From the NCBI GenBank assembly GCA_028532985.1, contig JANCIK010000010.1, positions 372,001-436,000 of the forward strand: DNA of 64,000 bases, read 5' to 3'. The notes beneath the pieces are model-generated. The model was not told the origin of the DNA. It worked only from the letters and a program-made list of their open reading frames with translations, and searched no databases. This document shows, in pieces, positions 22,675 to 53,656 of this stretch (position 1 is the stretch's first letter; every line of letters begins with the position of its first letter). A program made the translations under genes and the position numbers. The DNA comes from Stropharia rugosoannulata. Its lineage: Eukaryota > Basidiomycota > Agaricomycetes > Agaricales > Strophariaceae.

Positions 22675-25222
22675 TCACAGCATACTAGCATCGCTATCAT
22701 ACGATTGGCCGCTCAACCCATTCACGAGGTCCTCGACCGCCGCCTCGTCCCGTGTGTCGTCGTTTTCGTGCCCTGGTGCGGCGCTCCCGTCCCTGTTCCT
22801 AGATGGGTCCCCGGTCCTAGGCATATTCTCATTCCTCGCTTGACGTGCGCCGTATTCGTCATCGTGATCGTCTGCAAGCTCATCAACCTCTTCCTCCCCC
22901 TCCCCCTCTTCCGCCTCAGCCTGCACCTGCACCTGCACTCGCAATGTTACCTCCCCGCGCCCCATAGAAAGACCTACTGGCTCGGTCCTGATAGACGCGG
23001 GGCGGGTGTGCATATTCGAACTCGAAGGCCTGGGCTCCGTACGTTCTGGTTCATGTCCACGTTCAGCTTCACGTTCATGTTTATGTCCATGTTCAAATTC
23101 AGGCATAGAATTCGGGCGAACCGGTGCAGGCAAAAGAAAAATCGGTTCAGGCGTACTCAACCGCATACCAAGCCCCTGCGCGCGTGTCGGTGTCGGTTTC
23201 GGTGTCTTAGTTGTTGTGGTTTTAGCTGTAGTTTTAGCTGGCGTATTAGGTGCAGATAAACCAGCGGCAGCGGCAGTTCTGGACGCAGGCGTCTTACGTG
23301 CCCTCGGGGTACGCGGGGTACGCGGAGAGGGTGAAGGCATGCTCATCCCCTTCCTCTTTCGTGTCAGCGTCGCAGCAGCAGCAGCAGAAACAGAAGGGTC
23401 GGCCTCCGGCCGTTCTGTGATAAACACATACGAGCTCGGCGCCGGCGCGCTGGTCCCGACTGGTGTTGTTGGCGGATGCAGCGGTGTTGGTGGGTGCGCG
23501 AGGGAATTTGCCTGTGGTGGCCCTGTACCGTGATCGTGCAGCTGGAAGAGCTGCTGGTCCACCGGAACCACTACGCCCGTCTGCTGAGCCTGCACTTGCT
23601 GCTGCGATCGCTGCACCTGCCTAAGCCCCCGCATACGCATCCGGTGCTGCTCCCGTCTCCAATCATCCCTGCCTGGCCCGCCTCCACCATCATCCTCATC
23701 GCCATCGCCATCGCCACCTCCAACCTCGCCATCACCATCCTCCTCCTCCTCCTCCTCCTCTTCCCCCTCTTCCCCATCTTCACCAACCAGACTCTCCCCA
23801 CTCTCCTCCTCCTCCTCCCTCCTCAGCGCCCTCTCCCTCTCCGTCGCCTTCTCGAATGCGCGTATCTCATTTTCCCTCCTGAGCTTCGACAGCACTGCCT
23901 CCTCCCTCTTTGAAGCAGCGACTACCTGTTTCCAATGGCGCGGCAGGTGTGCGACCGGAACCAAAGGCAAACCACCCGAACCCAACGCACCCGGACCCAT
24001 CGTATCCGCCGTGAGCGACCCGCCGCCAATATCCATTCCAGTGAACACCTCGTGTGCAGGGGCAGGGCGCACAGAAGTAACATTGATGAACCCAAAGTAG
24101 TTCGTCCCCGCTAGCGCGCTCGGTTTATGCATATGCCGGGACACCTTCAGCTTCTCACGCATATCGGGAATCTTGCGCTCGCCCAGCAGGGACTCGGTCA
24201 CGACGGACTTGGGCGGCTGTTTGTGCCGCGCTGGCGTGGTCGCGGTCGCGGTCGTGGGCGGGGTCGTGGAGGCTGGGCCGCTGGCACGGGTGGGGACAGG
24301 GGCTGAAGAGGAGGAGGAAGAGAAGATGCTAACTGGAGGTTCAATCTGTGTGCGAGCGGGGCTGCCTGATGAGTGACGCGTACCGGGGTTTGGGGGTGCC
24401 TCAATCTGCGGATTGGGTTTGTTCCTAGGGGCGGCCGTGCCCACTCTCTGCCGCCCTAGATTTGCTGTTTCCTCGTGTTGTGGTTCTTGACGGGGTGCGG
24501 CACTCGCCCCTCCACGTGCGTTCTGCGCTTGCGGCTGCGGCTGCGCTGTCCGTGGTTCCTGCGACGACGACGGTGCTGGTGGCAGCGCGCCCCTCAACTG
24601 ACGATGCCACTCTGCATACCTCGCGCGTTCGCCCTCCACCTGCACCCTCTGCTTCGCCTCGCGCTCCTCCCTCTTCTTCGCACGCTCCCGCCTCTTACGT
24701 TCCTTATCCTTCATCTTATGCTCAGCCTCCCACTCATCCCACGCCGCAATCCGCTGTCGCTCGCTCTCCTCGTGCGCACGCGCCTCTTCTTCTGCCCTTT
24801 TGCGCTCCTCCTCCGCACTTTTCTGCTCCTTCAGCACCTCCACAAGCCGCGCGCGCAAGCGCTCTGCATGGGTGCCCCCGCGCAGGGGCGGTGAGGGAGT
24901 GTACCTAAGGCGCTGCGATCCCACGGGCTGGGCGGGGTACACCGGCGACACGCTCGCGTATCTCCAGTTGGCACCCTCCGAAGTCGAAGCGGATTGCGGC
25001 GGAGGCGGCGACGTGGTCAGATCGATTACAGCGTCAGTATCGGGTACCGGGCTAGGATCGGTGTACGGGTAAGGGCTCGTGCTAGTCATCGACATCCCGC
25101 GCGACTCGGTGTGCTCTATATTGTCAGCGTCGCGCACGCGCATTTTACCCTTCGCGCGGCGCAAGCGTTCGCGTTCGCGTTCGCCGTCTTTCATTACGTC
25201 AGCGTTGATGTCGTCCGGGTCT
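22675..25222 (-). pseudogene. 3' part of large low-complexity host gene, copy A (split by the KDZ transposon)
   Basis: Reads in one frame from about 25222 (DPDDINADV, then Met at 25194) to a stop at 22675. There is only about 28 bp between its first Met and the putative transposon end, so it lacks a promoter of its own. The sequence has a long charged coiled-coil-like stretch (EEERKRAEEEARAHEESERQRIAAWDEWEAEHKMKDKERKRRERAKK), a conserved-looking core (SLLGERKIPDMREKLKVSRHMHKPSALAGTNYFGFINVTS), a Glu/Asp/Gly-rich acidic run near 23700-23800, and basic Pro-rich segments. It is the apparent continuation of 44718-40171 across the insertion. No enzymatic domain is recognised. Possible alternative: an independent gene using a transposon-borne promoter. 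Confidence 0.7.
25214..25222 (+). repeat. putative target-site duplication, left copy
   Basis: TCCGGGTCT here is identical to 40162-40170. Joining the host sequence across the two copies gives a continuous frame (DNVVDPDDINADVMK). Element class (KDZ) is reported to make 8-9-bp duplications. Confidence 0.55.
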
Positions 25223-25246
25223 GTGGGTTATAGACAGGCAGTAATG

Positions 25247-25264
25247 CCCGGATAAAGTACCGGG
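25247..25264 (+). repeat. terminal/subterminal inverted repeat, left (CCCGGATAAAGTACCGGG)
   Basis: Inverted match (17/18) to 40150-40167. It is itself a partial palindrome (CCCGG...CCGGG). Confidence 0.7.
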
Positions 25265-25559
25265 TGTTACCTACAATTGACACCCGAGCATGCCAGCCAT
25301 TTTACCCCCGGTTTGATGCGGACTGTTACATAATCACGGTGTATCACATTGCCCTGTATCCAATGTAGTATTGCAATACATAACTCGTTATCTAGTATTA
25401 CCAATGATGCTGTTTTTCAATTTTCGTTGCAGAATTCCACCACATATTAATTTGTACGAGATGATGCTGTATCCTGTGTATATGGCGGATTTTTACCACG
25501 GGCGCCTGTTACCAAACTAATGGCAGAGTCCATCCAATTTCACCCCCCCATTGTCTTGC

Positions 25560-26140
25560 AGAATTCTACCACAATAACTGTACTCTGCATTTATGGTAGA
25601 AGAATACCACTGCGCGCAGCGCGTGTCAGCGTGGTGAAAATATCCAGCTGCATGGTGTATGCGTCGCGGTGGTAGAAATATACCACTGCGTGCCGCGTGT
25701 GTTAGCGTGGTAGATTTCACAGCTGCATGGCGTGCGCGTTGCAGTAGTAGAATTATACCACTGTGCGCCGCATGTGTCGCAGTGTATAATTCTACCAGTG
25801 CACGGCGTGCGCGACGCTGTGGTAGAAATATACCACTGCGCGCCGCGTATGTCAGCGTGGTGAAAATATCCAGCTGCACGGCGTGCGCAACGCAGTAGTA
25901 GAATTGTACTACTGTGTGCCGCGTGTGTCAGCGTGGTTGATTTCACTGCTGCACGGCGTGCGCGTCGCGGTAGTAGAATTATACCACTGTGCGCCGCGTG
26001 TGTCGCAGTGTATAATTCTACCACTGCACGGCGTGCGCGACGCTCTGGTAGAATTATACCACGGCGCGCCGCATGTGTCAGCGTGGTAAATTTCACAGCT
26101 GCACGGCGTGCGCGCGTGTGTATCACAGTGGTAGAATTCT
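25560..26140. repeat. left subterminal palindrome array
   Basis: Tandem array of imperfect palindromes of type GTGGTAGAAATATACCAC / GTAGAATTATACCAC, separated by GC-rich linkers such as GCGCGCCGCGTGTGTCAGCG and CACGGCGTGCGCGACGC. A higher-order period of about 223 bp is visible: blocks at 25745 and 25968 match closely. No coding potential; the ORFs across it are repeat artefacts. Confidence 0.9.
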
Positions 26141-26202
26141 GTGCGCTGTTGCCCACCCCCCCTTCCTCGAACCACGCTGATCTCAACTGTAACAGGTGCC
26201 CC

Positions 26203-26796
26203 ATGTACCCTCGTCCACTGCCTCATCCCAATACCCCTCCGCAGAAAACTGATAGCATAGAAGATGTTACACTGTCCTGCTTAATGTCGCAAAGTGAACA
26301 GCATAACCAACTATTCTACTATGGTGAAGAACTGGATAGTTTCAACATGTACTTCAATTATCGATGTACTGTTGAGGATGACACGGCTGCATCTCAGACG
26401 GAAGATGACTTTGACATCGAAGGGCTGACTGTACTTGCACAAATTGCTCGGTATATTGTAAGTGTGTTATGGTCTAAGTTCAATGTAGATGTTCATTATA
26501 GCTTTTATATTGAGCAGAGGCGTCTTGGTCTGGATGTGCTCTCAGTCGCTGCGACCCGAGTGGCATATAATCTGCTGGTACAGTTGTGGCAATCACAGGA
26601 AGTCATACTTTCTCGATATCACGAGCGACACCCTTCAAAACAGGATTGGGAACTATATGGGCGGAACGAGGACATTGAGTTCTTGTTTTTGATGTCTCAA
26701 AACGCACTGCACTTCCCTCAGTGCAAATATCGGTTCACAGTCCCCAATGTGCGTATCATAATGCACTTACTGGTGATTAATATTAATAGGTACTGA
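26203..26796 (+). CDS. Transposon accessory gene 1, unknown function
   Basis: First ATG after the left array opens a frame of 197 codons (MYPRPLPHPNTPPQK...). The N-terminal 45 residues are Pro/Gln-rich. The rest is helical-looking and acidic, with DDFDIEGLTVLAQIARYIVSVLWSKF and RVAYNLLVQLWQSQEVILSRYHERHPSKQDWELY. A GTGCGT donor directly after FTVPN could end the exon earlier, leaving a second exon unidentified before 27153. It lies between the subterminal array and the transposase gene, reading in the same direction. No domain is recognised; it might be a 5' exon of the transposase gene instead. Confidence 0.55.
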   Translation: MYPRPLPHPNTPPQKTDSIEDVTLSCLMSQSEQHNQLFYYGEELDSFNMYFNYRCTVEDDTAASQTEDDFDIEGLTVLAQIARYIVSVLWSKFNVDVHYSFYIEQRRLGLDVLSVAATRVAYNLLVQLWQSQEVILSRYHERHPSKQDWELYGRNEDIEFLFLMSQNALHFPQCKYRFTVPNVRIIMHLLVININRY

Positions 26797-27152
26797 CTTG
26801 TTTAAAGGTAACTAAATTAACTTTAGATTAATTGCTCAGGAGGCGACATCAATAGCTTGTAGTCACTGTGTATTTACATACAATCTATTCCATACTATGG
26901 AGATTTTATGCGATACAGCGACGAATATTCCATGAGCAAATTTGACTACACATTAACAGAAATATGTTGAATTTGCGGCACAACCTTGTAGACGTGGTAG
27001 ACTTCTACCATAGAATCAGATATGTGAACTCGTCATAGTAATGATAGTGGTAGAATTGGGCTAGGATGGGATTACATCCAAGAGCTGTATAGAGCGAGCA
27101 AACATCCAACGAACATCTCATAAATCTACTTGCTGTTAGCAGTTTCTAAGTC

Positions 27153-30100
27153 ATGGCATCACATACTGTCCGCCTGCAATACGACCGCCCCAAGTCAACG
27201 AAACAGCATGTGGTGTATGAATCTTCTTCTATCAGTATTACTACACCACGGCGCAAACAGTCTCGTCGCTCGAAGAAAGCAGCTGGTGAAGCCCAGAGGC
27301 ACACGCACGCACCATATCCCAAGCCTTTGTCTACTCCCTCCCCGCCCATCCATGCCACACTACCTTCCAATAGTCCTCAGCAGTTTAATCTAGGCGGCGA
27401 AGACTTACTGCTGTATAGCATGGACAGTTCTATGCCATTTCAAGAGACCTCCATGCCCGCTGCACCTACTGGCGGTCCTCCTGATATTTCTATGGATGGA
27501 GAGAGTGAGATCAATGTACAAAACGATGAAGAAAACTATGCCTTGTTTATTGAAGCTGTTCTATCCGATCAATGTTCATTTCTTCGACTCACTGAAGACT
27601 TGTTTGTGGCCAATGAATGGAATGCAGACAGGAATGAGGCGCTTCTAGTATGTCTTATGTTTTACATACAACTAAATATCTACTCAATCCAATCCAGTCG
27701 CGATGGGTCCATGTACAGAGTATCCAACACGGTGAAGAATTCCGAATCGGTTGCCAGTGTCCTCAAGGAAAACGACATTCAAAATGCTTTCACATCTCTT
27801 ATCTCTCTGAGTTCCAATCCGTACACTTTCCACCTTTTCAGTGCTTTCCTGGTACGCCTTTTCATATCTTGGACAATAGGTATTTAATAGAGAGATTAGA
27901 TGACAATAGACGCACCTTTCTATGTGCAAAGGATGAAACACCTCGGGATGGGATATACGACTCTGTCTTCTCTGTACCGGGTGCTCCACATGAGCTGTCT
28001 ATGACAGTCAAACAGCGCGCGCAATTGTCAAGCACCGTGGAGACGAGAAGGGTGGTGGTACATGGAAATGTACAAGAGACCAGGGCGCTTCAAGCTGCTG
28101 GCATATTGTGCAAGCACGTCATACACTCCAACAGCATGTACACTTCAGTTCTAATGCCTTCGACGAGGAGGCGGGATCTGGGGCATTGGAGTATTCACAC
28201 GGTATGCGAGATATGACTCAATTTAATGGCTTTCTACTCACATGTACACCTCTGCTATAGATTTTACTCCAGCTCAGCATGTTAAGGCAAGCGCAAGCGC
28301 CGTTTCATACATGCCCTTGCCACCACCTGCATGGGCTAAAATCTCTACAGATCCAGTCGTTGTACAGCCTCCTCTATTTGAGACATCACGTCCCCTCGAT
28401 TTAATCCCCCTTGATGAGCAGTCGACTTGCTGCTGTCAATCCCCAAGAGTAACATATAATCCTTTTGCTGCCTCATTGCATATGGAATGTACAATATATG
28501 GACTCACTGGCGCTGTTCAAACAACTATAGATGTGCAGCGTTGCGGAATGTGTAAACGTCGTTTTATTGGACCTGACTGTCAACAACTAGGTCTGTTTAA
28601 CTTTAACAATAAAACACTGTTGACGCACGAGCTCCTGGACGACTATACCAACCAATTCACAACCTCTGAGACACCATTTATAGCGTGGGTCACCGTGATA
28701 TCTAGGAGATATGAAGCCAGAAATTCAAGTATTCCTTTTGTCAGTGACCGCTTATTCCGAGCTGCTTGGTTTGCATACATCCAACTGGTTCAATTCAATC
28801 AAGACATGATCTGTCCAGAGTGTGGTCCCAATCCCGAAGCCATCATTGTCGACGGTGTTACACTTGCATTTAACCGCCGTAACCTCAGGCCCACTCTGCG
28901 TCCGCCCACCACAATCCATTCCGACTCTCCCAACAAGAACAACGTCAAGCAAATGTCAGGACTCCAGTTTATTCCGAGCCTACAATTACGAGACGCCATT
29001 CGCAGTGTTCTTAATGGGCCTCCGCTGCTACTGTCTTTACCAGAAAATCCCAGCTCATCAATTGTCAATCCAAATGTTATGAGTGACTCTGAATTGAGCT
29101 CTGATAGTGATGCATCTTCCACTCAAGCACATTCTACTCGAAAGGGTCAGAAGGCTCAGAAGAAGGCTCAAAAACTCTTAAAGGCAATGCAGGACAGGAT
29201 CAAGCTCATTCCCTCCGTTATATTAATGTTAGATGAGGTAGATGCCTCACTATCACAGCTTTTTAGCCGTTGCTACGGCACCGGTGCTATCCTGAGAGGT
29301 GCACCCGCTCCAACAGTATACAAAAAATTGTTTCTTCAGGTTGGTGTATATAAAGCGGTCATTTTACCGGAGCTCCACTGATTTATTTCAATAGATAGCA
29401 GCGGAGGAAACCTGTCTCCAGATGGTGAATGGATCCGCGTTAGAAGATCTGCGCTATTTTTGTGCTTCATCGGCGGTTCCTGGCATGGAACATGACTTGT
29501 CCAAGCTTGTGTCGCATTTGACGTCTATTCCAGCCTTGTACCACACTGTTAACCATGAGCTGAAAGAAGGAACTGTCAAACCTGATACTATTAAGCTGTG
29601 TTTGTGGCTTTATGTGCGCGCATCAACAGTGCTTCGTCAACTCGAAAAATATCCCGCTCCACCAGCTGAAATTGATCCCACCTTATATTCAACCACGGAT
29701 CGATGGCAAGAGGTACTTTTATTTATTTTTCTCCTGTAGTACTATGGCTTACAATTGTTATACAGACTGGATCGTTCTACGGAATGCCTCAAGTACGACA
29801 TCGCCCAAGATATCCAAATATGAAGTATGAAAATCTTCCAGACTCTGCCAAGAAAGAGAGTCGAGGCAAAGGATGCAACAAATTCTACGCAAAGTACGGT
29901 CAGTCACGACTTACTGGTGGAATTATGTGCATATGGTGTACCCATAGCATCTGCTATGGGTTCCATTGTATTCCTTCTGCTGAAGGGAGAAATGATGTGT
30001 TCTCGGCTGTGTACACAAGATGGAAAACTGCACCAAAAATCATTGTATATGATTTTGCGTGCGCTCTACAGCCCTATTGCATGATACGCGAACCGGCATT

Positions 30101-30356
30101 CTTTTCTAAAACCCTATTTGTTATCGATGTCTTCCATGCCACAGGGCATACAAAGTGTGGCCATGCCTCGTTTTTGAATACTTACTGCTCGACTAATCCT
30201 ACTCTTCTGTACATTAATTCCAGTGCGGCCGAATGCGGAAACGGAGGTATATTACGAATTCGAAAACCGGTGGTTTATATGTCACAGGAGCGGGCTATTA
30301 TTTATACCAAGACGTTTCTTTCTGTGTGGAACCGTCAAAGAATTAGATCATTGTAG
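27153..30356 (+). CDS. KDZ (Kyakuja-Dileera-Zisupton) transposase with SWIM-like and cysteine-cluster zinc motifs
   Basis: Catalyses movement of the surrounding element. Exon 1 is 27153-27647; a 50-nt intron leads to exon 2 at 27698 with a CxC...CxH motif (GCQCPQGKRHSKCFH). A second motif, KCTRDQGASSCWHI, lies in another frame near 28060, so at least one more intron is present there; its boundaries are unresolved. From 28261 the cysteine cluster reads CCCQSPR...RCGMCKRRFIGPDC...LGLFNFNN, followed by LLDDYTNQF, ETPFIAWVTVISRRYE, FRAAWFAYIQLVQF, CPECGPNPEAIIVDGVTLAF. The catalytic part (29765-30356) has LTGGIMCIWCTHSICYGFHCI, KIIVYDFACALQPYC, TLFVIDVFHATGHTKCG, YINSSAAECGN and AIIYTKTFLSVWNR; the Asp residues of YDFAC and VID and the Glu of AAECG fit an RNase H-fold triad. 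No stop interrupts the conserved blocks, so the gene may be intact. Confidence 0.9.
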
Positions 30357-30602
30357 ACTTGGTTAGACTAGTACTTAGTGCATGTATTAGAACCATAAAG
30401 AAGTCACTCAATTGACGCCTGTGGCAGAGACAAGTTAAATGGATATAGTTGATCAATGGTAGAATTTCCCCGCAAGGCAAAAGGTTTCTGGTTGTGAAAT
30501 TTCGGTGCAGTGATATTTTGATGGTCCGATCCTGCTTTGCCACGGCGCAATTCACTGCGACTCTCACTTTGATTTTATCCCGTCTGCCTTCGATATTGCG
30601 GA

Positions 30603-32339
30603 ATGACCGAGACAGTAAGTAGTAGAAGATTGACTCGTGCCACAACGGCATCACCAGCTAAAGCAAAGGTAAGTTTATCTATAGACAGTCTCTTAAACTG
30701 CTTTCTGATTCTGAATGTGATACTTAGACCGCAAGTCGACAACCCAGCCGCTGCACAAAGTGCGAGAAAAGGCCATTGAAAAGCCAGTGTGTCCATTCCA
30801 AGGCGGGAAGAGTATACTTAGAGCAACAGTCCCAGGTATATTTCTACTTCATGTCTATCAATAATAACATTCTTGAAAGGCAAATCTTTAGACAGATAAA
30901 GACATATCCTCACATAGAACATCAACTCGAGTGGTCGCGGAACCTGCAGAACCTAGTCTTACTACGGGCGTGCCGTTTCTGCAGCCTCTGCCATCAAGCA
31001 CGGCGTTACACTTCCTACCGGTATGTCTGTTGTTATTATAAATGCTTTTACATGTTTCAGTCCTGACAAACCTGTCAGCCCGATTTCCTACAGAATGCAA
31101 TGCATACTGAGGAGCCACAAACGACTGCGACTCTTGGACCTATGACTTTGGATCCAATGCTAGTCACCCAGAACTCAGCAGCGTCAAGCATGATTGGCAC
31201 CAACCAGATGGTAGATGCTAGTCCCACGGCCTCAAGAGCACCTCCACGCTGCAGCATATGTCCTGGTCGCCCAATTAGAGATCAATGTAGTCACACGAAG
31301 AAAGGATCGGCATTTCTGATTCAACAAAATATCTTACAGGTGTGACTAGATCATTATCCGATGACATACGATTTTACTCATGATGGCAGGAATTAAATCT
31401 GCACACTCAACATCTCGCCAGCTTGAGCACTCACGCGCCGGATATACGCAGCGATTCCATGTCTCTTCCGTCTGCGATACCTCGTGGTTTGTTTGATTTA
31501 CCAACAAGAGATTCAGGATCAGGGGCAAATGACAGGTGAGATGAGTCAATTTCTCACATAAAATTCCTATAGTGGAACTAAACCGATGCTCATAGCAGCC
31601 CAATGCGCGAGGAGGTCGCCTCAAACGCCGACTCAGCATTTACCACACCAATTCGAGGTGAACCGCACACTGGCAAATCTGACAAATCAAAGAAAGACCG
31701 TCTTCGTGCCACAGCATCGAACCCTATATACGGCCATGTTGACGGACTATACCGTGGTACAAGCAAGCATTGTATGTATGCTCTAATTATCTCAATCCAA
31801 AATCAGACCAGCCTCATTTTGTTTCATTCTAGCATTACACCGTGGCCACCAACTTCCCAACGAGATTATGGATAGTGATAAGTGTCATAGGTACTTCACG
31901 GAGATGGTTAACAGCTTGATAGTTCGTGTAAGTAATCCGTTTATTCATTCAATTACATTGACAAATATTGTCGTATGTACAGTGCGAGGATTTGTCCGTG
32001 CAAACCGGCTGCTGGCTCTTTTTTGGTGCCCAGAATCCAACATCCCGCGTTCCGCCTCTGCATTATGCGTCTCCCAGGATCCGCAACGAATCAGAGGAGA
32101 TCTCTGAATTTGGTTCCTACTTTTGCACAGTCTTGCATGAACTAATGGACGCTCGCCGTAAAGACACACTCAAGGTTCAACGTCACCTCCAAGAGGTGAA
32201 GAAACAAAAGGAGCTCTTGGAGAGCGAGTTGGAAACACTTCGGCTGCAGGGTAGCAGTAAAGACGCACTCATTGCTAAGTATCAGGAAACATTTGGTAGC
32301 ATACAGCATGGGGATGTGGGGTCAACTTCTACTGTCTGA
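30603..32339 (+). CDS. Transposon accessory gene 2: tandem Cys/His motifs plus C-terminal coiled coil
   Basis: Multi-exon model starting MTETVSSRRLTRATTASPAKAK (30603), then exons near 30727-30835, 30895-31020, 31095-31338, 31389-31530, 31600-31775, 31830-31929 and 31981-32339. Two related short motifs occur: RCTKCEKRPLKSQCVHSKAG and RCSICPGRPIRDQCSHTKKG, both C-x2-C-x8-C-x-H followed by a hydrophilic linker and (Y/F)L.QQ.(I/S)Q. This implies duplication of a small zinc-binding unit. The last exon contains ALHYASPRIRNESEEIS-like sequence, a short acidic segment and a heptad-rich helix (KVQRHLQEVKKQKELLESELETLRLQ). A DNA- or RNA-binding role is an inference from the motifs. It has no assigned family and no counterpart elsewhere in the window. 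Confidence 0.65.
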
Positions 32340-33043
32340 TCTAAATTACTGTAGTCGAGACCGTCATGTAGGCATATAAGACTATTATATATTTTTTGAC
32401 ACTAAGAAACTCAGATAACATGAGTGATAGAGACGGTGTTAATGGTAAAGTGGATATAGAATGCAGCGTAAAGGCAAGTCGCAACCGTCGCAACCGTCGC
32501 AAATGCGTTTGTGGATGATTTCGTATGCTCTGTACCTCATTAAATATCAATGCAAGGGCCACAAAACATGGTATACTTCATATCAAGCAATAAACACGCC
32601 TACAGATACCAATTTGGCATAGAAAAAACATGGTTGAGAAAGGGCTGTAAATTGAGGGTATAGGACATCAAACTCAGTACGAAACTATGGTTCTCAACTC
32701 GGTGAAATATACAACAATCATAAACCACCTCACTTCTAAGTGTTCATCTCTAATTCTGGCCTATGTCTATATTATACATCTCACATGGTATAAATCCAGT
32801 TAGAAATACGAGAAAAAACACTGTACATATGTAAGAAGACGAGGAGAATAGCCCGTCGCAAACACTGTCTTGGTGTTTGCGATTGAGTTACGATACATAT
32901 ATATGTCTCGAGCTCATACTCTAGGCGGTTGATTTCACACTTCTGATGTTATTATTATACAGATAGAAATTGGGTAGAAAGGATAATGAATTTAAATTGA
33001 GTATGGATACACAATTGTATGCATAGGCTACGTTACAGGGATG
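32340..33043. other. central spacer between convergent gene halves of the transposon
   Basis: AT-rich DNA where rightward and leftward genes converge. It contains a short GTCGCAACC duplication near 32478. No gene supported. Confidence 0.5.
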
Positions 33044-33974
33044 TTATTCAACGGAACGTGTTACCCTGGTCGAACTGGGGGCTTTTTCGCAGTCTGCAAG
33101 CACCTTTAGAAACTCTGCGTACCCTAAATCACCCAATCCAAGCATTTCTCGATGAATCAGTTGGAGGCGGCAGTCCAACACTGTTACTCCACAGGATAAC
33201 GCATTTGCCATCTCGATATGGTACCTGTAAAGGAGGGAGATAGCAAGAGGATCCGAAGGTAGGCGGCCTTGTATCGTATCTACCCGGCCGTGTATGTCTT
33301 TCCCTTCTTGAGAATGTTCGTAGATCTGTTTCACAAGATCTCTACAAGCAATGTGACCCTCTCTCCTGGCGTCGTAGAAAAGGATATCCAGAGTATCATT
33401 CCAGTTCCGCCAACCTCCCCAAACAGATGACCAGTCATAAACCCGATGTCTGAGGGAGATGAAGTGGTCATACTGCTCGAATGACGCGGACATGTTGTCA
33501 AAGTCTGGAGGTAAGTCCACCAAGGGCGGATACTTGGGTTTACGGCTACCATTCATGACTGCTTGCAGAACGCGAGATGATTTGTGGCGGCGTGGCAAAG
33601 ACGAAACATAGCATCCGTCAGGGCAGGTGTGATCTCCACCAGCTTGAATACTTGCATTGCTATACGCTGGTGTTAGTATTTATACTAGAAGAACATCAGA
33701 TATACAATACTTTACCTATAGGTTTTTAGCGGTATTTCTGCAAGAACGGTCTGAGATTCTTTCTTTTCTCTGATTAAAAATGTAATTAGCAAGATAATTC
33801 ATTTCACTGGAGGTTCACATACTTCTGTTTGAGACGGTTCAATCTATTCCGTTCCGCATTTTTCTTTTTGATAACATCCTTGTTTCTGTAGTATGTTAGT
33901 AAAAATTGAGGTGCTAAACAGTGATGCATATACCTTTCATAGTACCGTTGATCCTTTGATAGCTCATCGCTCAT
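33044..33974 (-). CDS. Transposon accessory gene 3, unknown function, basic N-terminus
   Basis: Starts MSDELSKDQRYYER at 33974, continues after a short intron as NKDVIKKKNAERNRLNRLKQK, then small exons, and a main exon from about 33650 to the stop at 33044. The N-terminal basic helix (YYERNKDVIKKKNAERNRLNRL) resembles the K/N/E-rich helices seen in various mobile-element nuclease or DNA-binding proteins. The main exon is helical with DWSSVWGGWRNWNDTLDILFYDARREGHIACRDLVKQIY. No catalytic motif is recognised. It reads toward the element centre. Confidence 0.6.
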
Positions 33975-34084
33975 TGGTAGGTAGATAATTGAACATTTGA
34001 CTTGAGCTTGTTAGGCAATGTGGGAGGAAGAAAGGAAGGTAAGCAACACATAATGACTTGGTGAAGCTCCCCTTGATGTCACAT

Positions 34085-35000
34085 GTGGCCGCACGGAACA
34101 GTGGGAGTGCGTCAGCCGACTGTGCGCAGTGCGCATCACTGTGGGAGAATTATCCCAGTTGTATGCAGGCGCATGAGCATAGCAAAATTCTCCCAGGCGT
34201 GCGTTGTGGGAGAATACCATGTTGTGCGCCATTTGTGTCAGTGTGGGCACCTGGTCTCCGTGTGAATTATTGTGCTATATAACGGACGCATCACTCTGGA
34301 GATATTCTACCAGCTGTGTGTTGGGAGAATACCCTGCCGTGCTGTGCTCATCAGCGTGGGATTTTATTACTTATGCACCGTGCGCGTTGGTTGTGGGAGA
34401 ATGCAACATAGTGCGCCGTGTATGTTAGTGTGGGAGAATTCTCCCATCTGTTTTCCGTGTGAATTAGTTAGCTGTATAGCGGGTGCATCTCCCTGGTGAG
34501 ATTCTACCAGCTGTGTGTTGGGAGAATACCCTGCCGTACTGTGTTCATCAGCGTGGGATTTTATTACTTATGCACCGTGCGCGCTGGTTGTGGGAGAATG
34601 CAACATAGTGCGCCGTGTATGTTAGTGTGGGAGAATTCTCCCATCTGTTTTCCGTGTGAATTAGTGAGCTGTATAGCGGGTACATCTCCCTGGTGAGATT
34701 CTACTAGCTGTGTGTTGGGAGGCCCTGCCGTGGCGTGCTCATTAGCGTGGGATTTTCTTACATATGAACTGTGTGCGTTGGCTGTGGGAGAATACGACAT
34801 TGTGTGCCGTGTGTGTCAGTGAGGGAGAATTCTCCCACTTGTTCTCTGTGTGAACTAGTATACTATATAGCGGGCGCATCTCCCTGGTGAAATTCTACCA
34901 GCTGTGTGTTGCGCGCACTTGTTTGGGAGAATACCCTGCTGTGCCGTGCTCGTCAGCTGTACACACCATGTGTCTTTGTGGTGGAATTATACTAGCTGTA
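34085..35000. repeat. central palindrome array (GTGGGAGAATTCTCCCAC type)
   Basis: Tandem blocks carrying GTGGGAGAATTCTCCCA(C/T) and half sites (TTGGGAGAATACCCTGC, GATTCTACCAGCTGTGTG). The higher-order period is about 198 bp: matching blocks begin near 34298, 34497 and 34695. The core differs from the outer arrays at one base per half-site (GGGAG versus GGTAG). No coding potential. Confidence 0.88.
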
Positions 35001-35130
35001 GGATTATACCTCTTTCTGTAGCCAAATTCCGTCATGGACGTCAGTCAATCGCACAAATGCTTAATAAATGTAAATGATAAAGTCAATGCAATTCACAAGG
35101 TAGCTAACACAACTACGGCATTTAAAAAAA

Positions 35131-37825
35131 TTAAAATGAACTAGAACGACGTCGAGGACGTTTAACCTCCATATTCTCGCTGTTTGCAACCTCGAATTTC
35201 GTCTGCCTGAACTGAAACCAAGGTCCGTCGGCGGCTCTCATCCTGTTGAGCACAAAGACAAGATAATTGGCCTGTTTGAGTCGCATGCTGCGATTGTTGC
35301 CATTAACAGTTGAGATATTGTCCTCTGAGTATATGTCATCGATACTGAGCCCCGTAAGTTCGTTGAAAGCCTGTACAACAAAGGTGCGAATGCGAGGGTC
35401 CATGTGCATTGAACCTAGGCCCTCTTGCCGTCCCTCGTAGGTCGGATTCCGAGAGGTTGCTTTCCATGTCTTCCAAAAGTAGAAGTCGAAAAGAACGTCG
35501 TCGACTGGGCATCCACAGTCCATGAACTTGTTAAGGTCCCGTGGAACGTGGTCGCCTGACTTTTTGGACCCAATTTGTGGGGGATATGCGACACCTTGAA
35601 CCAAATAAGATAAAACTGCGCGCCCATCCCAGTAGCGTTTCATCTTCGTCTTCTCGTGATATCTGCATTGAATGTTACCGTTTTTGTTCGTATGAATATG
35701 AATGGCTAGATCTCGTGAGATCATAGAGACCTGGGGCAGGAAGTTTTGAACCGAACGCAGGGTACGACGCATGCTAAAGTCAATATAACACGTTGGATCA
35801 AGAATGAACTTCTTGACGGCATATAGAACATTCTCTAAGGCAGGGGTCAGTATAAAATACTCAGAGGAAGCGATAACTCACTTTCATACTGCTCCTTTTC
35901 TACAGTAGACATTGACAAGTACTCCAGAGGCTCGCTCTCAATGTACATATCAGGGCGGAATAACATTCTCTTAGACCGTGTATGCATGCCCTCACTGTCC
36001 ACCTCGGCGTCGCTAAGTTCATCCGCGTCATTGTCGGAATGCAGCTCAAGCTCAAACGCTTCCTGTCTGGTGAGATTTCGGACAGATTCAGCCTTGACGG
36101 CGGCTATTCGGGCTTCATCAGTCTTGAATGGACCTCCAGGCAGGTATTTGTCGATCGCGGAAATGATGACAGGATCAGAGAGGTTGATCTTGCTACTTGT
36201 ATTTGTCAAAAGCAGCGTGAGCTGTGCAAGTCCGAGGTCTGGCTGCTTCTTGGAGACTCACGCAGATGCAGCAGGCTTACTTGTCGTTGCTCGAATAGCC
36301 TTCTTGATCTCCCTCTGCACTGCTCGCAGCGAGAGCAACGCGTCCTCGTGGGCGTTGACCTTAGCTACCAAAGCCTTTCTCTCCTTCTCGATTGACGCAT
36401 TTCCTGGATCTTTAGGTTCTCGATGCACAATGATTCTGCGAAGTTCGTTGCTATCCTTAGTCTTAGCCTTCGCGCGAGCAGCAATGCGAGCTTCTATATC
36501 CAGCAGTTTCGCATTAGAATCTTCGGCTGTGCCCTGGTTCTTGAACTCTTCATTGTGAACAACGGTGCTTTCGTTCCTAGCCTGTTCAACTGACGCAAGA
36601 AGTGTTTCGGCCGTCTGAGGATTGATAGCGGAGAAATCGGCGTTGGTATCCATACTGACATCGGTAATCGCCCTGTGCTGTGCCAAGGTATTACTCTCCG
36701 GCAGAGGTTCAGCCGCACGGATATGAATAGGAGTAAGATCGGTCCCGTCGCCTTCAGGTATAATATTACTGCGGCTAGGGGATGGCGACGTTGACAAGGG
36801 TTTAGGGGTGCCCGATGAATTTGACGTGCAAGTGGTCGGAGTCTTGTGAGAATCAGAGTTAGCAGTAGGGCGTTTCCTGGCAGGGGTTGTAGGGGGATTG
36901 TTGAAGTGAGGGAAGGAAATATTGCCGTGGTCGAAGTTAAGGAAGTCAAAGGGCCCAGTTTCCGCCTGGCTTGCATTTAACATATGTGAGAGCGAGTCAT
37001 CGAATCCAATGGGCCTTGAGTCCATTATAGCAGAAAGGCTCAGCTGCGCTGGGGATACAATCTGAATCATTTCATTGACCTTGATAATTTCGTTTGAAAT
37101 GGCGTGAAATTGGTTTGGTTCGATTTGTGAGTGTAACATCTGGTGCTGTAGGCCGCGGAGCGTAGCTTTAAGCTCAAGAGACTTGTTCGTCTTCTCTTCC
37201 CCAGAGAGACTAGAGAGCTGAGACATGTTCTGTAATTAGTATAGTTAACAATAATAGAACTGATTTCATACCGATGAAAGCTCAGGATTATTGGTTTGAC
37301 TAGGACCGGATTCAGCCAATATACGATCGTATTCCATCAGACCGGGATTTTGATTATCATAACGATCAGAGTTTGTCTCCAGCCACAAGTCAACTGGGCC
37401 TCCTATTGCAACACCTGTGCCTTCGTCTTCAAGCTCTGTAAGCGGAGAGCTAGGGGGAATCGACGGCTTTTTGTTGGGAATATCAGGATTACTGGAGCGC
37501 AGAATGGCAACCTGTTCTGTAGCCATTTCCAGACATTTCCTCAAACTCGTCTCTTTCACTGTAATATACCATAGTAAACTTAGTATATGACAATTTCCTA
37601 GGACAAGTACACGCACCTGTTACTTTGTTTAGTTTTCGCTTGCTTTTCGAGCGCGTTTCAAGGAATGCTTCAAGCTTCGCTTGAGCAGCTGCCTGAGCAT
37701 CGATCGCCGACTGTAGATCTTGTGCTGCATTATGTACCACCCCAATAAGTCAGGAGCGCATACAAGAGAGCGTAGAAATAGAAAGACTCACGCTGACACT
37801 TTTCAAGCAATCTTTTCGCAGGCAT
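35131..37825 (-). CDS. Transposon accessory gene 4: large multi-exon protein of unknown function
   Basis: Model begins MPAKRLLEKCQ at 37825. Exons follow near 37727-37619 (DLQSAIDAQAAAQAKLEAFLETRSKSKRKLNK), 37560-37275, 37226-36260, 36209-35880 and 35830-35131. The N-terminal half is a coiled-coil-like and disordered region with ATLRGLQHQMLHSQIEPNQF and a long Arg/Lys/Glu helix (ARIAARAKAKTKDSNELRRI). The C-terminal globular part reads NVLYAVKKFILDPTCYIDFSMRRTLRSVQNF, RYWDGRAVLSYLVQGVAYPPQIGSKKSGDHVPRDLNKFMDCGCPVDDVLFDFYFWKTWKAT and ends with basic KRPRRRSSS. It is the second-largest gene of the element. I recognise no family. Intron edges other than the first were not all verified. Confidence 0.6.
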
Positions 37826-38028
37826 TGTACTGAACACTAGCAAAGTTTGGGCAAAGTAGGTGGAAGTTGAGAATAGGTGTTGAAGAATTTTACCGCTGGG
37901 GAAAAATATTTATGTCGTATCAATCAGCTACTATACTATTTTATCGATCATATGTGTATATCAAATTGATGGAAATTATGGTTACGAGCTAAGGAATAGA
38001 TTCACTGTATATGATATACCGTAGAATT

Positions 38029-38971
38029 CTACAACAATACTATCTCGCCAGTTTTGTTATTTCTTCCATAAGTACAACTATTCTTGAAGCCATCGTCAGA
38101 TTCGTCAGTAGATATTTCAGTAGTATCTTGACCACTGTCGGAGTTACTGTTTTTCTTCGTGACCTTGGATCCAGGCAAACGATAGCGTGGTGGAACAGGC
38201 GGAGGGGGTTTGGAAGGTTGTGCAACAGCCAGAGAGTGGTGAAGTCGCCGAATTTCGCGATCGAGGCCACCACACTCGTAGTCGACTCTGTATGCAGACC
38301 TGTATAAGAGACAGCCACCAGGCTCAACCAAGTCTCCAAGCTGGAAGTCGGCTAAGCGCCAATGCGGACGAGCTCTTGCGTTATAAACCATGTAAACTGA
38401 GACATGTAGTTGGCCCAAATGATACAGTCGGTAATTATGGGAAAGATTGTGTCGACCATTCATAATAGGACCATAAGATATTAATGGTGCGTCTGTTATG
38501 GACTTTTGTACATGTGGTTAGTGAAGTAAACTCGGAATCAAATACTGTTTATACAAAACTTACTGGTAACCAAAATTTGATTCTGACCTGAGGTTGAGCT
38601 TTTGCGTCAATGCATCTTGGTCTTTGGCATACAGGGTCGACACAAACTGAGAGATGATTGTAATACACGTAAGGGAGAGTTTTGGGAGAGTTCAAGACAT
38701 TGAACATACATTTGCGCGCATCAACACAGTATGCATCGTGCCACGAGGGAATTGCATTAGAATCCGAGTCGTCTATTAAGAAATAGTAAAATGAGATTAA
38801 TTGTGAACATACATGTATGCCAGTATGTTTTCTACTTACATTCTGAATCCGAAATTTCGTCGAGCAGCATACATTCCACAATGTCCTCTACTTCACTTTT
38901 AGTGAATGTAAATGAGTGAATATAAGTGGCCACTCACCGTCAATTTCCATTTCAGTAATGATCTGTGCCAT
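38029..38971 (-). CDS. Transposon accessory gene 5: small Cys-containing protein of unknown function
   Basis: Starts MAQIITEMEID at 38971, outermost gene before the right array. Two short exons (around DIVECMLLDEISDSE) lead to an exon with SWHDAYCVDARKCMFNVLNSPKTLPYVYYNHLSVCVDPVCQRPRCIDAK. The final exon (to 38029) holds NYRLYHLGQLHVSVYMVYNARARPHWRLADFQLGDLVEPGGCLLYRSAYRVDYECGGLDREIRRLHHSL and an acidic Ser-rich tail. The CVDPVCQRPRCID spacing could bind zinc. No family recognised. Leftward transcription starts right beside the subterminal array. Confidence 0.55.
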
Positions 38972-39164
38972 TGTGAGCCGGATGTGTAGTGCAGAAGAAG
39001 AGAGAAGGAAGAGAGGAAAGAATCAAGAAAGATGGGTACTTGGATTATCCTATATTCACCACGTTGACAAGATGGGATAGACGTGATAGCCCCGTCCTGG
39101 AGTAAAAATATACTATGTATTCAACTGAAGTTTTATTCAACAATTTGTGGGCAATTAGACCTCA

Positions 39165-39780
39165 TGGTAGAATACCACCACGCCAGCCGGACGCGCCGTG
39201 CAGCGCACGAGCTTTGTCCTGTGGTAGAAAAAGATCACAGATACTATATACTTTACTGACACCTCATTCTACAGTTCTCAACCCAATAACACATGTGGTA
39301 GAATGCCACCACTACAGACCAGCTGCATGACGCGCCGTGTGGAACATCTGCACTGTCCTGTGGTAGAATAATACCGCACCGGAGCGCCATAGCACGAGAG
39401 CTTTCTCCTGTGGTAGAAATACACCACACCAGATGTGGCTTCAAGACGCGCTGTGCGTAGCGTGGGACAACTGTGGTAGAATACTACCACAGCAGACTCG
39501 GCAGCAAGACGCGCCGTGCGGAGCGTCGGCGCTGTCCTGTGGTAGAATACTACCGCACCGGAACCCCGTATCCCCTAGCTTTGTCCTGTGGTAGAAATAC
39601 ACCACACCAGAAAGACGCGCTGTGCATAGCGTGGGACAACTGTGGTAGAATGCTACCACAGCAGACTCGGCAGCAAGACGCGCCGTGCGGAGCATCTGCG
39701 CTGTCCTGTGGTAGAATACTACCGCACCGGAGCGCTGTAGCACCCGAGCTTTGTCATGTGGTAGAAACACACCACACATG
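39165..39780. repeat. right subterminal palindrome array
   Basis: Tandem units containing GTGGTAGAATACTACCAC, GTGGTAGAATACTACCGCAC and GTGGTAGAAATACACCAC, with linkers GACGCGCCGTGCGGAGCG. The higher-order period is about 176 bp: the block at 39472 recurs at 39648. The core sequence matches the left array, supporting a paired terminal function. Confidence 0.9.
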
Positions 39781-40149
39781 CTTCATCTTTTTACTGACAT
39801 TTTAATTTTATAGTTCTCGAGCGAATAATACCCATAATTGATTACTACCATACCGGACGTGGCTGCCAGGCGCATCGTGCGGCACGGCTACAACAACAAC
39901 TACTTGTGCTACTGTATAAGAGTTACAGTATCCATTGTATTGTCTACTACATTTTGAATGCAGTCTTGCATTAATTGGATGGCCCTATTTAAATTGAAAC
40001 TAAAATTATATCCATACTAGTAGCATGGCAAAGACACAGAAGTGGCAGGCGTACATCACAGGAGAGAAGAGAGAGTAGACATCATGTGACAAGTAAGCAA
40101 ACCCGGGAAAAGTTACGGTGAGGCGCGGGGCTGTGATATTGCGGGCATG

Positions 40150-40167
40150 CCCGGTGCTTTATCCGGG
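40150..40167 (-). repeat. terminal/subterminal inverted repeat, right (CCCGGATAAAGCACCGGG on the minus strand)
   Basis: Inverted counterpart of 25247-25264 with one mismatch. Confidence 0.7.
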
Positions 40168-43100
40168 TCTACAACGTTGTCGATATCTGGGGTCTGTGTC
40201 CATTGCATTCGCTCCGTCCTCGTCATTGTCGTCTGGGCCAGGCAGCACGAAGTCGTCGTCGAATGCACCACCTGGACCACCCCGGTCGAAAACGCTCATA
40301 GCCGTAAACGGTGCCGGACCCGCACTATTATGTGGCACAGGGTTAGCACGACCAAAGGAGGAGGAGGGGACACGGCGATCCCGCTCCTCAGCATACCGCT
40401 GCCTATTAACCCGACCGCGTTCCGCAAGCTCCTGCTCCAGCCGCTCCCGTGTCGCTCGCTCGCTCTCCTGCCGTAATCGAATCTCCCACTCCTCGCCTTT
40501 GCTGCGCACCCCCTCACCGCGCACCTCACGCATGCGGATCGCAGCCTCCTGCTGTATCTGTACCATGTCCGCCTCGTTCTGCATCCTATCCCCCGCCTCG
40601 TTCTGCACCCGCCTTTCCCTATCCGCCACCTGCTGAGCGACGAGCGCATCCTGCATTGACCGCGCGCGCGCGAGCACGTCGCGGGCAGCCGCCTCGCGCG
40701 TTTGGTTCTGCGTCTGCGTCTGCGTCTGGCTTTGCGTCTGTACCCCATCCCCGTCCCCATTCCGCGCCCCATCTGCAGCCTGCCGAACACCCAACCCCCC
40801 CAGCTGACCCCGCTCCCTCTCCTGCGCCACGCGGAGCTCGAGCAGCTGCATCCTCTCCGTGCACGCCTGCTTGAGCCCCGTGTTTAGTTGCACACGATTC
40901 GTATGTGTAGCTGGATACATGGGATGCATGGCTGGAAACTGATTCATGGGCGGTGGATGATTCGAGGTCGGATGTTGATACGCTTGCTGATACGCCTGCT
41001 GCTGCACATGCATTGTAGGCGGGGGCGTAGCCGTATACGCCACCCGTGCAAGCGCCGTGTATCCATGCGCACCAGCAGAACCGGGACCGCGCAGAGTGAC
41101 CGGGACCGAAACAGGGCCTTGTACACGCTCGGGCTCGATGGGTATCCCTGCACCCGCGCCGCCGAGGCCCCCCACCTGTACATGTACAGGAGCTTGCACT
41201 TGCAACTGAGATTGACCGTCTTGGGGGTGCACGAGCACCGGCGGGACGCCAGAGCGCACGTAGGCAGGTTTCGTCGCGCTGGTACTATGCTGCATAATGT
41301 GTGGTTGCGGTTGCGGTACCTCTTGTGCCTGCGCCTGCCCACCCGCATTCGTTTTCTCCCTAAACTCCCTAGCGAGCGCCTCGTACCCCTGCGGGCCTTG
41401 CGCAGGAGGCAGGCGGTGCCCTGTGAACGGCCCAGTCTCTGAGACCAACACCGGCACCGGAGGCGGGCGCGCCTGAATAGGCACAGGTGCGTGTGGGTGT
41501 GGGTGTGCAGACTCGAGCACAGGCGCCGGACGGGGTGGTTGTATAGACTCGGAGGATGGAGGAGGTTGCATGCGCTCGCCGTACAGTGGGATACGCCCAC
41601 CTCCGACTGCAACTATGGGCCGCGAGCGGACGCACTGTTGGTCTTGCTGCAGTACTGCTCGGTCTTGTTGTCGTTTTTGCGATTGAAGTGATTGCTCGCG
41701 ATGCACCCCGCCCGTTGCAGACGCTGCGCTCGCGCTCCTGCTAGACTGCCCGGAACTAGACCTATCAGAGTCCTCTTTCTTCCTTCCACTTCCACTATCA
41801 CCAGAACTCGCACCCGGATCTGGACTGGCACTCACACTCCCGCGCGCCTCTCTGTCCATCGACATCGCGCTCTCCACGCCCATCGCATCGCCCATCCTAC
41901 CTCCCATTACATCGGAGCTCGATTTACCTCTCGCCCTCTCTGCCTCCAGCTCCATCTCCATCGCGCGCTCGAGCGCCTTGACACGGTGCCGCGGGCGCTG
42001 GGGGCCAGGTCCACCGGCAGACGTGGACGCCGATACAGAGGACACCGATGCAGACGCTGATACGGATGCGGATGCAGACAGTGGCACTGACATTGATACG
42101 GGTACGGACGCGGATGTAGCCGAAGACGCTGATACGACCGCAGGAGGGGAGCCTGCAGGAACTACTGCAACTACAGGCTTCTCGGCGCCCGCAGACACGA
42201 CAACAGACGCAGGCGCAGACGAACCAGCCGCAAGCCCCGCAACCGCCGCCTCAGCCTCAGCGCGTGCAACGGTCGTGCTCGACACTGGCCTGCCTGCTTT
42301 ACGGAAGCGTGGTGGGAGCGAGGGGCCGTCGACGTGTGGTATCGGAGGAGGGCTAGGCTGGGGTGCATCAGTGTCAGACGAACGTCCAGCTGCAACTGCA
42401 ACTCCAGCGCCAGGTCCGGGTCCAGATCCAAATTCAGCTGCAGCGCTAGGTCCAGTGCCAGAACCAGCGTCAGGTCCAGCGCCAGAACCAGAATCAGGCA
42501 TTATCGCCGGCGTCGTGTATGATACAGATTCTACGGAAGGTTCCGTTCGTGCATTCTGTGTATTCAGGGGCTGCAATCCAAATCAGGGGGAAGATAGTAC
42601 CAATCAAGGAAAGGCAGCAATCCAAAATCAAGGAAAGACAGTTCAAAGTCAAGAATCAAGGTACAAAGTCAAGAAAAGACAATACAAAATCAATAATAAA
42701 GGAAAGACTCCATTAGACATACACATCTCGCGCTGCGGAATAGGGGAGTACGTACCTGTACCTGTGCAGGACCTGGAGGTGAACGCGTGCGAGTGTAACC
42801 TGGTGGGATATATGGGCCAGGGCCGTACAGCGCCTCAGCAGAGTCCGGGCTCCGGTTCGCACTCGCGCTCGCACTCGCACTGGCCTGTCGTCGGCCCGAT
42901 ATTGCGCTCGCCTGGCGAATTACGGTGTCTGTCTCACCGCGCTGGTGCTGCTGTCATCCGAGTCAGCACGTCTGTATGCGTATGCATATAATGGGTCCAC
43001 TTACCACCTGATGGCTGTCAATCCCACTCGGACGTCCTAAAAGCTGAGGACTGATGCTCGGACGTCCTACCACCTGAGGACTGAAGCTCTGCGCAGAGGC

Positions 43101-52391: not shown

Positions 52392-52673
52392 GAAAACCAG
52401 AAGACTGCGGATTCAACGAGTATGCTCTAGCAAACATGGCCGTAACGTAAACGCTAATCCTCGCTCTGACTCTTCCATTAGGGGGAAGGAAAGCCAAGTG
52501 GTGTCATGTCTTCATTGGGAAAGGGTGTTGTACGCAGACCGATGATTGTTCTTCAAAACGTCTCAAAAGACGAGAAGTTAAACACGGGGAGGTTGAAGGG
52601 AAAGGATATGAAAGTAATCCAGTGTGTCTGTCTGAGGACGATGGCAACTCCGTGGATGGGGGCACCAAGAAAA

Positions 52674-52821
52674 GTCCGTGGCAACGTCCGTGGCACGTCC
52701 GTGCATCCGTGCAAGGTCCGTGCAAACAGGTGTAAGTCCGTGCAAAGTCCGTGTAAATTAGCTGTAAGTCCGTGCAAATTAGTCGCAAGTCCGTGCACAC
52801 ATCCGTGATGCGTCCGTGCAA
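52674..52821 (+). repeat. GTCCGTGC repeat cluster 1
   Basis: About a dozen GTCCGTG(C/G/T) or ATCCGTG units at irregular 10-18-bp spacing. Confidence 0.85.
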
Positions 52822-53464: not shown

Positions 53465-53656
53465 TGTGTGTGTCTGTACATTATCCGTGCAAGTGTATGT
53501 GCGTCCATGCAACATCCGTGTGCATCCGTGCAGCGTGCATGTCTGTGCAGCGTCCGTGCGCGTCCGTGAGGCGTCTGTGCGCATCCGTGCAGCGTCCGTG
53601 TACGTCCGTGCGATGTCCGTGCGCGTCTGTGCAAAGTCTGTGCATGTCCGTGCAGG
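53465..53656 (+). repeat. GTCCGTGC repeat cluster 2
   Basis: Starts with GTGTGTGTGTCTG and continues with about 15 units of GT(C/T)CGTGC/ATCCGTGC spaced 10-12 bp. Confidence 0.85.

Follow-up and report, generated by a model that had tools for sequence, protein, structure and literature searches.

The window analysed here is a stretch of 64,000 nucleotides from the mushroom Stropharia rugosoannulata (contig JANCIK010000010.1, C10:372001-436000, in a host genome of 48 Mb in 20 contigs). It contains a KDZ DNA transposon; this identity is given by a CxC4 domain, a D..D..E core, homologues that carry both domains and 8-bp target-site duplications. Six genes lie within the element, and a short palindrome, TGGTAGAATTCTACCA, recurs in arrays inside both of its ends, in its centre and singly in front of genes. 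The element is probably a multi-protein CxC4-KDZ transposon with an element-encoded, family-private recognition system that co-regulates its genes and marks its ends. Within this reading, the element likely belongs, as a cut-and-paste DNA transposon, to the CxC4 branch of the KDZ superfamily.

The limits of the element, in window positions, are as follows.

25225..40189: whole element, 14,965 bp, which begins with GGGTTATAGACAGG and ends (in reverse complement) with CAGATATCGACAAC; placed by copy comparison and the host frame
25217..25224: left copy of the target-site duplication, GGGTCTGT; the host open reading frame is re-formed without the element and one copy
40190..40197: right copy of the target-site duplication, GGGTCTGT; pairs with the left copy
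25247..25264, plus strand: inner part of the left terminal inverted repeat, 18 bp, 94% complementary to the right motif
40150..40167, minus strand: inner part of the right terminal inverted repeat, 18 bp, which pairs with the left motif

In-silico removal of the element and one duplication joins the flanks into one open frame, 1,644 codons long, that spans the junction; when the join is shifted by 1 or 2 bases, the open frame is only 857 and 881 codons. The ends are therefore exact, and the element interrupts a host reading frame. This frame (window 22675-25227 and 40159-42582, minus strand) is low-complexity and has no Pfam match. An earlier reading of the sequence (the original prediction) had recognised the element with ends at 25223 and 40161; the element stands, and its limits are corrected by the ends that five copies share. 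The inverted 18-bp motifs that it described are present at both ends.

Three further collinear copies, with approximately 65-81% identity to the window copy (W) in aligned pieces, were found by DNA search and comparison; another copy, on contig C6, was examined in pieces.

C9a: 16,258 bp, duplication TTGTAACC
C5a: 16,306 bp, duplication GGAAGCTA, with a 1.1-kb insertion in the CxC4 region
C5b: 22,577 bp, C5:371.8-394.3 kb, duplication ATGATTGC, with a nested insertion
Copy on C6: about 946.7-962.5 kb, duplication CTGTTGCG

All five copies with both ends have 8-bp duplications and terminate identically. The 18-bp motifs are the inner portion of imperfect terminal inverted repeats, which extend over approximately 120 bp in C5b; those of W, C9a and C5a are shorter or have decayed. 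C9a and C5a are 90-98% alike. The extra length of C5b comes from a nested, LTR-like insertion bearing a pair of 463-bp direct repeats; since the repeats are identical, this insertion is young. W and the C6 copy differ by one substitution and 8 small gaps (11 bases in total) in 2,135 aligned columns from four pieces, and such near-identity indicates recent movement of the element. All 8 gaps are bases absent from the C6 copy; they appear to shift the frames of two genes (G3 and G6, below) and may be assembly errors. The left-end search yields one partial copy, a lone 185-bp left end at C1:194717-194901 (98% identical to W); neither a right end nor a second duplication is present within the 10 kb examined on that flank.

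The gene models are comparative predictions from conservation among W, C9a and C5b, and their start codons are approximate. Three genes point right and three point left, in the convergent layout that had been predicted.

26203..26796, plus strand: G1, small protein, no Pfam match; the 3' end of the model is uncertain
27153..30356, plus strand: G2, transposase, 860 amino acids in the model, with SWIM-like CxCPx7CxH, CxC4 (PF18717) and KDZ core D..D..E
30603..32379, plus strand: G3, about 386 amino acids, with two CxxCx8CxH motifs and a conserved last exon whose end resembles a coiled coil (weak matches only)
33044..33974, minus strand: G4, about 257-273 amino acids, with an N terminus that is basic by inspection
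35131..37836, minus strand: G5, about 722 amino acids in the model, start approximate, with a conserved C-terminal domain containing CxxH and CxC
38029..38950, minus strand: G6, no Pfam match in the fused G5/G6 model

The Pfam scan covered five models, as G5 and G6 then still formed one fused model. A single G5/G6 gene was rejected and split, since the G6 stop codon and then a palindrome precede G5. The sole match above the curated cut-off is the CxC4 domain of G2 (E 3.6e-47; 159.9 bits against a cut-off of 26.9); the five accessory proteins have none, which agrees with the original prediction of a KDZ transposase accompanied by five genes of no recognised family. Matches under the cut-off are to KDZ, Octopine_DH, Fer4_20, Med28, DDE_Tnp_1_6 and PARM. 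The D, D and E of the KDZ core, which we take to be the catalytic residues, are identical in seven sequences by inspection. Transposases of the CxC4 type occur widely (217 proteins, most of them annotated as hypothetical), the best match being from Pholiota conissans with 60% identity over the searched part; among the best 120 of the 217, CxC4 is carried by 119, and PF18758 and PF18717 are both carried by 5. No viral contigs match six peptide patterns from the KDZ exon.

All six genes are conserved between diverged copies. Protein identity of W to C9a and C5b, respectively, is 90 and 89% in the KDZ core, 82 and 74% in the last exon of G3, 68 and 68% in the G5 C-terminus, 67 and 69% in G6, 62 and 53% in G1, and 56 and 59% in G4; in the C6 copy, the proteins of the G1, G4 and G5 C-terminal exons are identical to those of W. 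Across nine exon stretches covering all six genes, pS between diverged copies is 0.57-0.92, at or near saturation, while pN is 0.05-0.30; all six genes are thus kept by selection. The CxxH and CxC residues of G5 are retained in three copies, three other CxC4 loci and Pholiota. The CxxCx8CxH motif of G3 is retained in six other sequences compared, and takes the form CxxxCx8CxH in a second CxC4 family. Among 5.8 billion proteins, G5 has one relative (Pholiota conissans, 42% identity) and G3 has none at E 1e-3. A sequence search of the PDB gives nothing meaningful, with best E values of 0.51 (G5), 3 (G4) and 0.45 (G3 last exon).

The palindromes of the element are placed as follows.

about 25427-26140: left array, 11 palindrome matches (up to 3 mismatches), upstream of G1
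26995..27010: single palindrome, TGGTAGACTTCTACCA, upstream of G2; a half-site lies at about 27048
30457..30464: half-site, TGGTAGAA, upstream of G3
about 34122-35000: central array of 197-bp units, 7 matches, with the variant TGGGAGAATTCTCCCA, upstream of G4
38019..38034: single palindrome, CCGTAGAATTCTACAA, 3 mismatches, upstream of G5
about 39158-39791: right array of 169-bp units, 9 matches, upstream of G6

With up to 3 mismatches, TGGTAGAATTCTACCA has 30 matches in the window, 29 of which lie within the element (11 left, 7 central, 9 right, one before G2 and one before G5); in dinucleotide-shuffled versions of the window the mean is 0.22 and the maximum 2. Arrays had been predicted at both ends and in the centre, and these are confirmed; the predicted distance of 300-400 bp inside the ends is replaced by about 200-1,000 bp. 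In the four copies read whole (W, C9a, C5a and C5b), three arrays lie at matching places. Counted by copy at the same stringency, W has 23 palindromes, C9a 20, C5a 14 and C5b 16, compared with averages of 0.05-0.35 when each copy is base-shuffled 20 times; sites within one array are not independent of one another. The excess emerges once mismatches are allowed: perfect palindromes with 8-bp arms number 2-4 per copy against 0-2 in shuffles, a slight excess, and exact GGTAGAA-N0-5-TTCTACC occurs at two sites only, both in C5b.

The array units themselves are unrelated, with lengths of 75, 197 and 169 bp in W, 71, 71-88 and 75 bp in C9a, and 76, 86 and 140 bp in C5b. A palindromic core is common to all arrays, and many C9a and C5a sites have a spacer of 3.

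Palindromes are located in front of genes rather than within them. A palindrome or half-site precedes all six W genes, with the nearest site upstream of the start at 71, 102, 143, 175, 190 and 218 bp for G1 to G6. The corresponding distances, for starts transferred from W by alignment, are 130, 82, 141, 213, 131 and 151 bp in C5b and 228, 100, 126, 140, 163 and 1,402 bp in C9a. Across roughly 10.1 kb of genes, none of the 23 palindromes of W, 20 of C9a or 16 of C5b is inside a gene; for exact half-sites, the numbers are 0 of 25, 2 of 33 and 2 of 27, respectively, and the two in C9a sit at the G6 stop, in front of G5.

At one mismatch or fewer, all 16 palindrome sites in the genome lie within the five copies; together with the joint recurrence of genes and arrays in the other copies, this bears out the expectation that genes and arrays are inherited together and that the arrays are not widespread without the transposase. 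With a tolerance of 2 mismatches the count rises to 82, compared with 9 when the pattern is reversed, and some of the 2-mismatch sites fall outside the five copies, among the matches listed. One identical 2-mismatch site, TGGTAGAATTCTTCGA, occurs at no fewer than eight places on six contigs (at least C1:84544, C1:240592, C2:3382493, C3:20402, C4:2068208, C6:3122436, C7:354519 and C7:2478669); it is probably part of an unrelated dispersed repeat.

A second CxC4 family in this genome has a similar layout and a different palindrome. Its loci on C6 (2.50 Mb), C8 (0.59 Mb) and C1 (4.05 Mb) are 99.9% alike, and a cousin on C12 is 74-78% alike in long pieces. GTAC-N5-GTAC occurs 31 times per 10 kb in each of the three loci and 23 times in the cousin, against an expectation of 0.15 at base frequencies of 1/4; these loci have no palindrome of the TGGTAGAATTCTACCA type. 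One array is situated between the G3 last exon (minus strand) and the CxC4 exon (plus strand). A second is found some 320-730 bp inward of the right end, whose sequence, taken from the outside, is GGGACAACCG. A third family, on C13, has four CTGTACA-like palindromes in one locus, too few to judge. Neither TGGTAGAATTCTACCA nor GTAC-N5-GTAC is present in 30 of the 86 non-CxC4 KDZ loci of the genome, scanned over about 3.7 kb each (109,881 bp).

The accessory genes accompany CxC4 transposases beyond the family of W. The genome has 28 CxC4 matches, counted as 27 loci; within 20 kb, G3 is found at 24, G5 at 23 and G4 at 17 of these. The searches used one window exon for each gene at E 1e-3 and scored the best candidates, so that absences are not proof. 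Three loci have none of G3, G4 and G5: C6:688116, C12:27 (at a contig end) and C6:447132 (a fragment). Outside the family of W, identities are 28-41% for G5 and 34-42% for G3, save one 44-residue G3 match at 50%. Since identities are low and gene order and strand vary, the association of CxC4 with these genes is old and not a product of simple copying. Of 86 non-CxC4 KDZ loci, just two show G3 or G5 at a distance of up to 15 kb; each of the two has a CxC4 locus no more than 10 kb away, which explains the presence of the accessory gene. G1 and G6 are more restricted: all five genome matches of G1 are in the five copies of W's family, and G6 occurs in these and in one weak match elsewhere.

No CxC4 is present within 20 kb of 3 of the 26 G5 matches and of one G3 match. 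G3 with G5, or G5 alone, is found in this situation at C6:870-874 kb, C9:213878 and C9:245703; the last is 22.5 kb from the CxC4 locus C9:268216, which has no nearer G5. It is possible that these loci are deletion derivatives.

TET/JBP (PF12851) follows the opposite distribution. The genome has 32 matches to it, and 27 of them have a non-CxC4 KDZ locus at most 10 kb away, in agreement with published TET-carrying KDZ elements. TET/JBP neighbours are found at 27 of 86 non-CxC4 KDZ loci (within 10 kb) and at 0 of 27 CxC4 loci (within 20 kb), with a Fisher p of 0.0002 in which same-family copies are not independent. Thus, in this genome, the helpers of one KDZ branch differ from those of the other. 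It is as if the CxC4 class used another countermeasure than TET/JBP.

These observations suggest the following mechanism. A DNA-binding protein made by the element would read the family-private palindrome, probably as a dimer because the site is a palindrome. The first candidate is G3, favoured for its zinc motifs, its coiled-coil-like end (weak matches) and its near-constant presence; G5 is the second, and the SWIM and CxC4 domains of the transposase are further possible binders. Bound at every promoter, the protein would switch on all six genes together, or keep them unsilenced. Bound to the arrays near both ends, it would help to show the transposase the element's own ends. Since the second CxC4 family has a like layout and another palindrome, each family would control only itself. 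Such a system would work in the manner of plant VANC and TNPA, without being related to them.

The foremost alternative, which is nonetheless unlikely, is that the arrays serve only for end recognition in the manner of TNPA: an accessory protein would pair the ends, and sites upstream of genes would be incidental. The position of the arrays inside both ends of W and inside the right end of the second family is consistent with this. TNPA binds subterminal repeats that vary among CACTA elements (PMC2613891). End recognition leaves unexplained the central array, which in W is some 9 kb away from its left end and 5 kb from its right end and has counterparts in the other three copies read whole, as well as the sites upstream of G2, G3 and G5 and the absence of palindromes from genes. 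Accessory proteins may work on the arrays jointly with the transposase, as the original prediction supposed; the sites upstream of every gene point to gene control at least as much as to end processing.

Considerably less probable is an autorepressor, in which the binder would silence all six genes at high copy number and so limit transposition. Operator-like palindromes near every W start and the low number of copies with both ends (only five found) agree with it; long arrays of many sites would exceed what simple repression needs.

There is little to recommend the capture of host transcription-factor sites. Sites upstream of genes can be host-driven, and some transposons (TCN3) carry host heat-shock motifs (PMC12810828). 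Since all sites at one mismatch or fewer lie in the five copies, no host regulon uses the palindrome at that stringency, and the other CxC4 family has another palindrome. Passive growth of a minisatellite without function is very improbable: tandem arrays can expand by slippage and the units vary freely among copies, but one palindrome is kept across unrelated units and in single non-array sites of diverged copies.

A giant cargo-bearing element, with accessory genes as passengers or in the service of the host, is the least credible possibility; its 15-kb size and the excess of accessory genes over transposase would suit it, but G3 and G5 accompany the transposase across families, mostly at 28-42% identity, and no metabolic, resistance or other host-type domain exceeds the Pfam cut-off. 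The original prediction had offered both 'giant cargo-bearing' and 'multi-protein KDZ element'. The former is abandoned, as the genes behave like parts of the element and the Pfam scan revealed no passenger among them; the latter is retained on the joint recurrence of genes and arrays, purifying selection and the association of G3 and G5 with CxC4-KDZ. Starship-like giant cargo elements have a tyrosine-recombinase captain and host-type cargo. A Starship-like identity was rejected, as the five models scanned against Pfam contain no recombinase match.

There are a number of observations that weigh against the favoured reading of a self-recognising multi-protein transposon. Some concern the sites. 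The strict site nearest to G6 in C9a is the one at 1,402 bp, and the right array there has the related GTGGAATTATTCCAC; the two half-sites noted in C5b fall inside genes. The right array of the second family follows a transposase exon and is not before any recognised gene, and G4 was not detected in that family. In the 30 non-CxC4 KDZ loci without either palindrome, the scanned stretches were short, and arrays farther away would escape.

Others concern the proteins. The KDZ domain PF18758 of G2 is under the Pfam cut-off (17.2-19.5 of 26.6 bits, best E 8.7e-4). In the young pair C9a-C5a, dN/dS is 1.02 on 9 differences in the KDZ exon and 0.46 on 8 differences in the G5 C-terminus, with 0.10-0.29 in the other seven stretches; C5a, which is interrupted in the CxC4 region, may be decaying. 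AlphaFold models are poor (mean pLDDT of 42 for the G4 main exon in 3 sequences and 38 for the G5 C-terminal exon in 4), and for this reason no fold speaks for DNA binding. None of the accessory proteins searched yielded a relative whose function is known.

A broader proposal is more tentative, and somewhat doubtful as a whole. CxC4-KDZ elements might be a fungal class with an obligatory accessory core (G3, G5 and usually G4) that forms a sequence-specific system of anti-silencing and control, evolved separately from plant VANC. Each family would have a private palindromic code at promoters and arrays, with code and reader co-diverging, and the system would fill the role of TET/JBP in the other KDZ elements of this genome.

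Elsewhere in the window, there are two further features. Firstly, GTCCGTGC occurs 18 times, against 2.0 expected, and forms three clusters within 1.65 kb (52671-54314), with 14 on one strand followed by 3 inverted; these could be binding-site arrays of another element. Secondly, a HET (heterokaryon incompatibility) domain, PF06985, lies at 10205-10846 on the minus strand (E 9.2e-10).

KDZ elements are common in mushrooms and, in the accessible parts of the literature, are described as a transposase, sometimes with TET/JBP; no accessory genes or palindromic arrays were found named for them in the search listings of an open-licence library of papers. If the proposed mechanism is correct, one KDZ branch would consist of multi-component machines, with an accessory core of uncharacterised families and a private cis-code. 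It would be a second, independent case of sequence-specific self-recognition by a transposon. Escape of fungal transposons from silencing would become directly testable in culturable mushrooms, and natural protein-site pairs of differing specificity would be available in one genome.

Among described KDZ elements, Zisupton elements of mushrooms have inverted repeats and 8-bp duplications (PMC12730594). The present element shares both. Kyakuja and Zisupton elements of mushrooms carry TET/JBP (PMC12730594); the CxC4 loci here differ in having no TET/JBP match within 20 kb. Two Kyakuja families of Laccaria have 7-bp duplications and CA..TG ends without inverted repeats (PMC12730594), in contrast to the 8 bp, GGG.. 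left end and inverted repeats found here. Cryptococcus KDZ1, KDZ2 and KDZ3 are about 9-11 kb long, with a CxC-type zinc domain, terminal inverted repeats and duplications of 8 bp, or 4-8 bp for KDZ2 and KDZ3 (PMC12810828). They resemble the present element in KDZ transposase, CxC-type domain, inverted repeats and 8-bp duplications. They differ in having CxC1 instead of CxC4, and the accessible text describes them as a transposase, without accessory genes or palindrome arrays.

The closest functional analogues are found in plants. VANDAL21 of Arabidopsis, which we take to be a Mutator-like element, likewise combines a transposase and accessory proteins with family-specific motifs in noncoding tandem repeats; accumulation of a family-specific motif in such repeats is also seen here. 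No Pfam match to the VANC-type domains DUF1985 or DUF287 was found up to E 5 in the five models, and the present element is KDZ, not MULE. VANC binds short motifs that accumulate in noncoding tandem repeats of the VANDAL family to which it belongs, and it removes methylation; related VANDAL families have other motifs (PMC5735166, PMC10398659). Binding and hypomethylation are demonstrated there, whereas for the present element they are proposed; the word 'palindrome' is absent from PMC5735166.

The transposase of En/Spm is not known to be related to that of KDZ elements. En/Spm resembles the present element in having a DNA-binding protein (TNPA) separate from the transposase (TNPD) and variable repeats near its ends. 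It differs in its CACTA ends and in that its repeats, in the accessible descriptions, are at the ends and not at each gene. By analogy, the element described here combines a VANC-like layout with a TNPA-like one.

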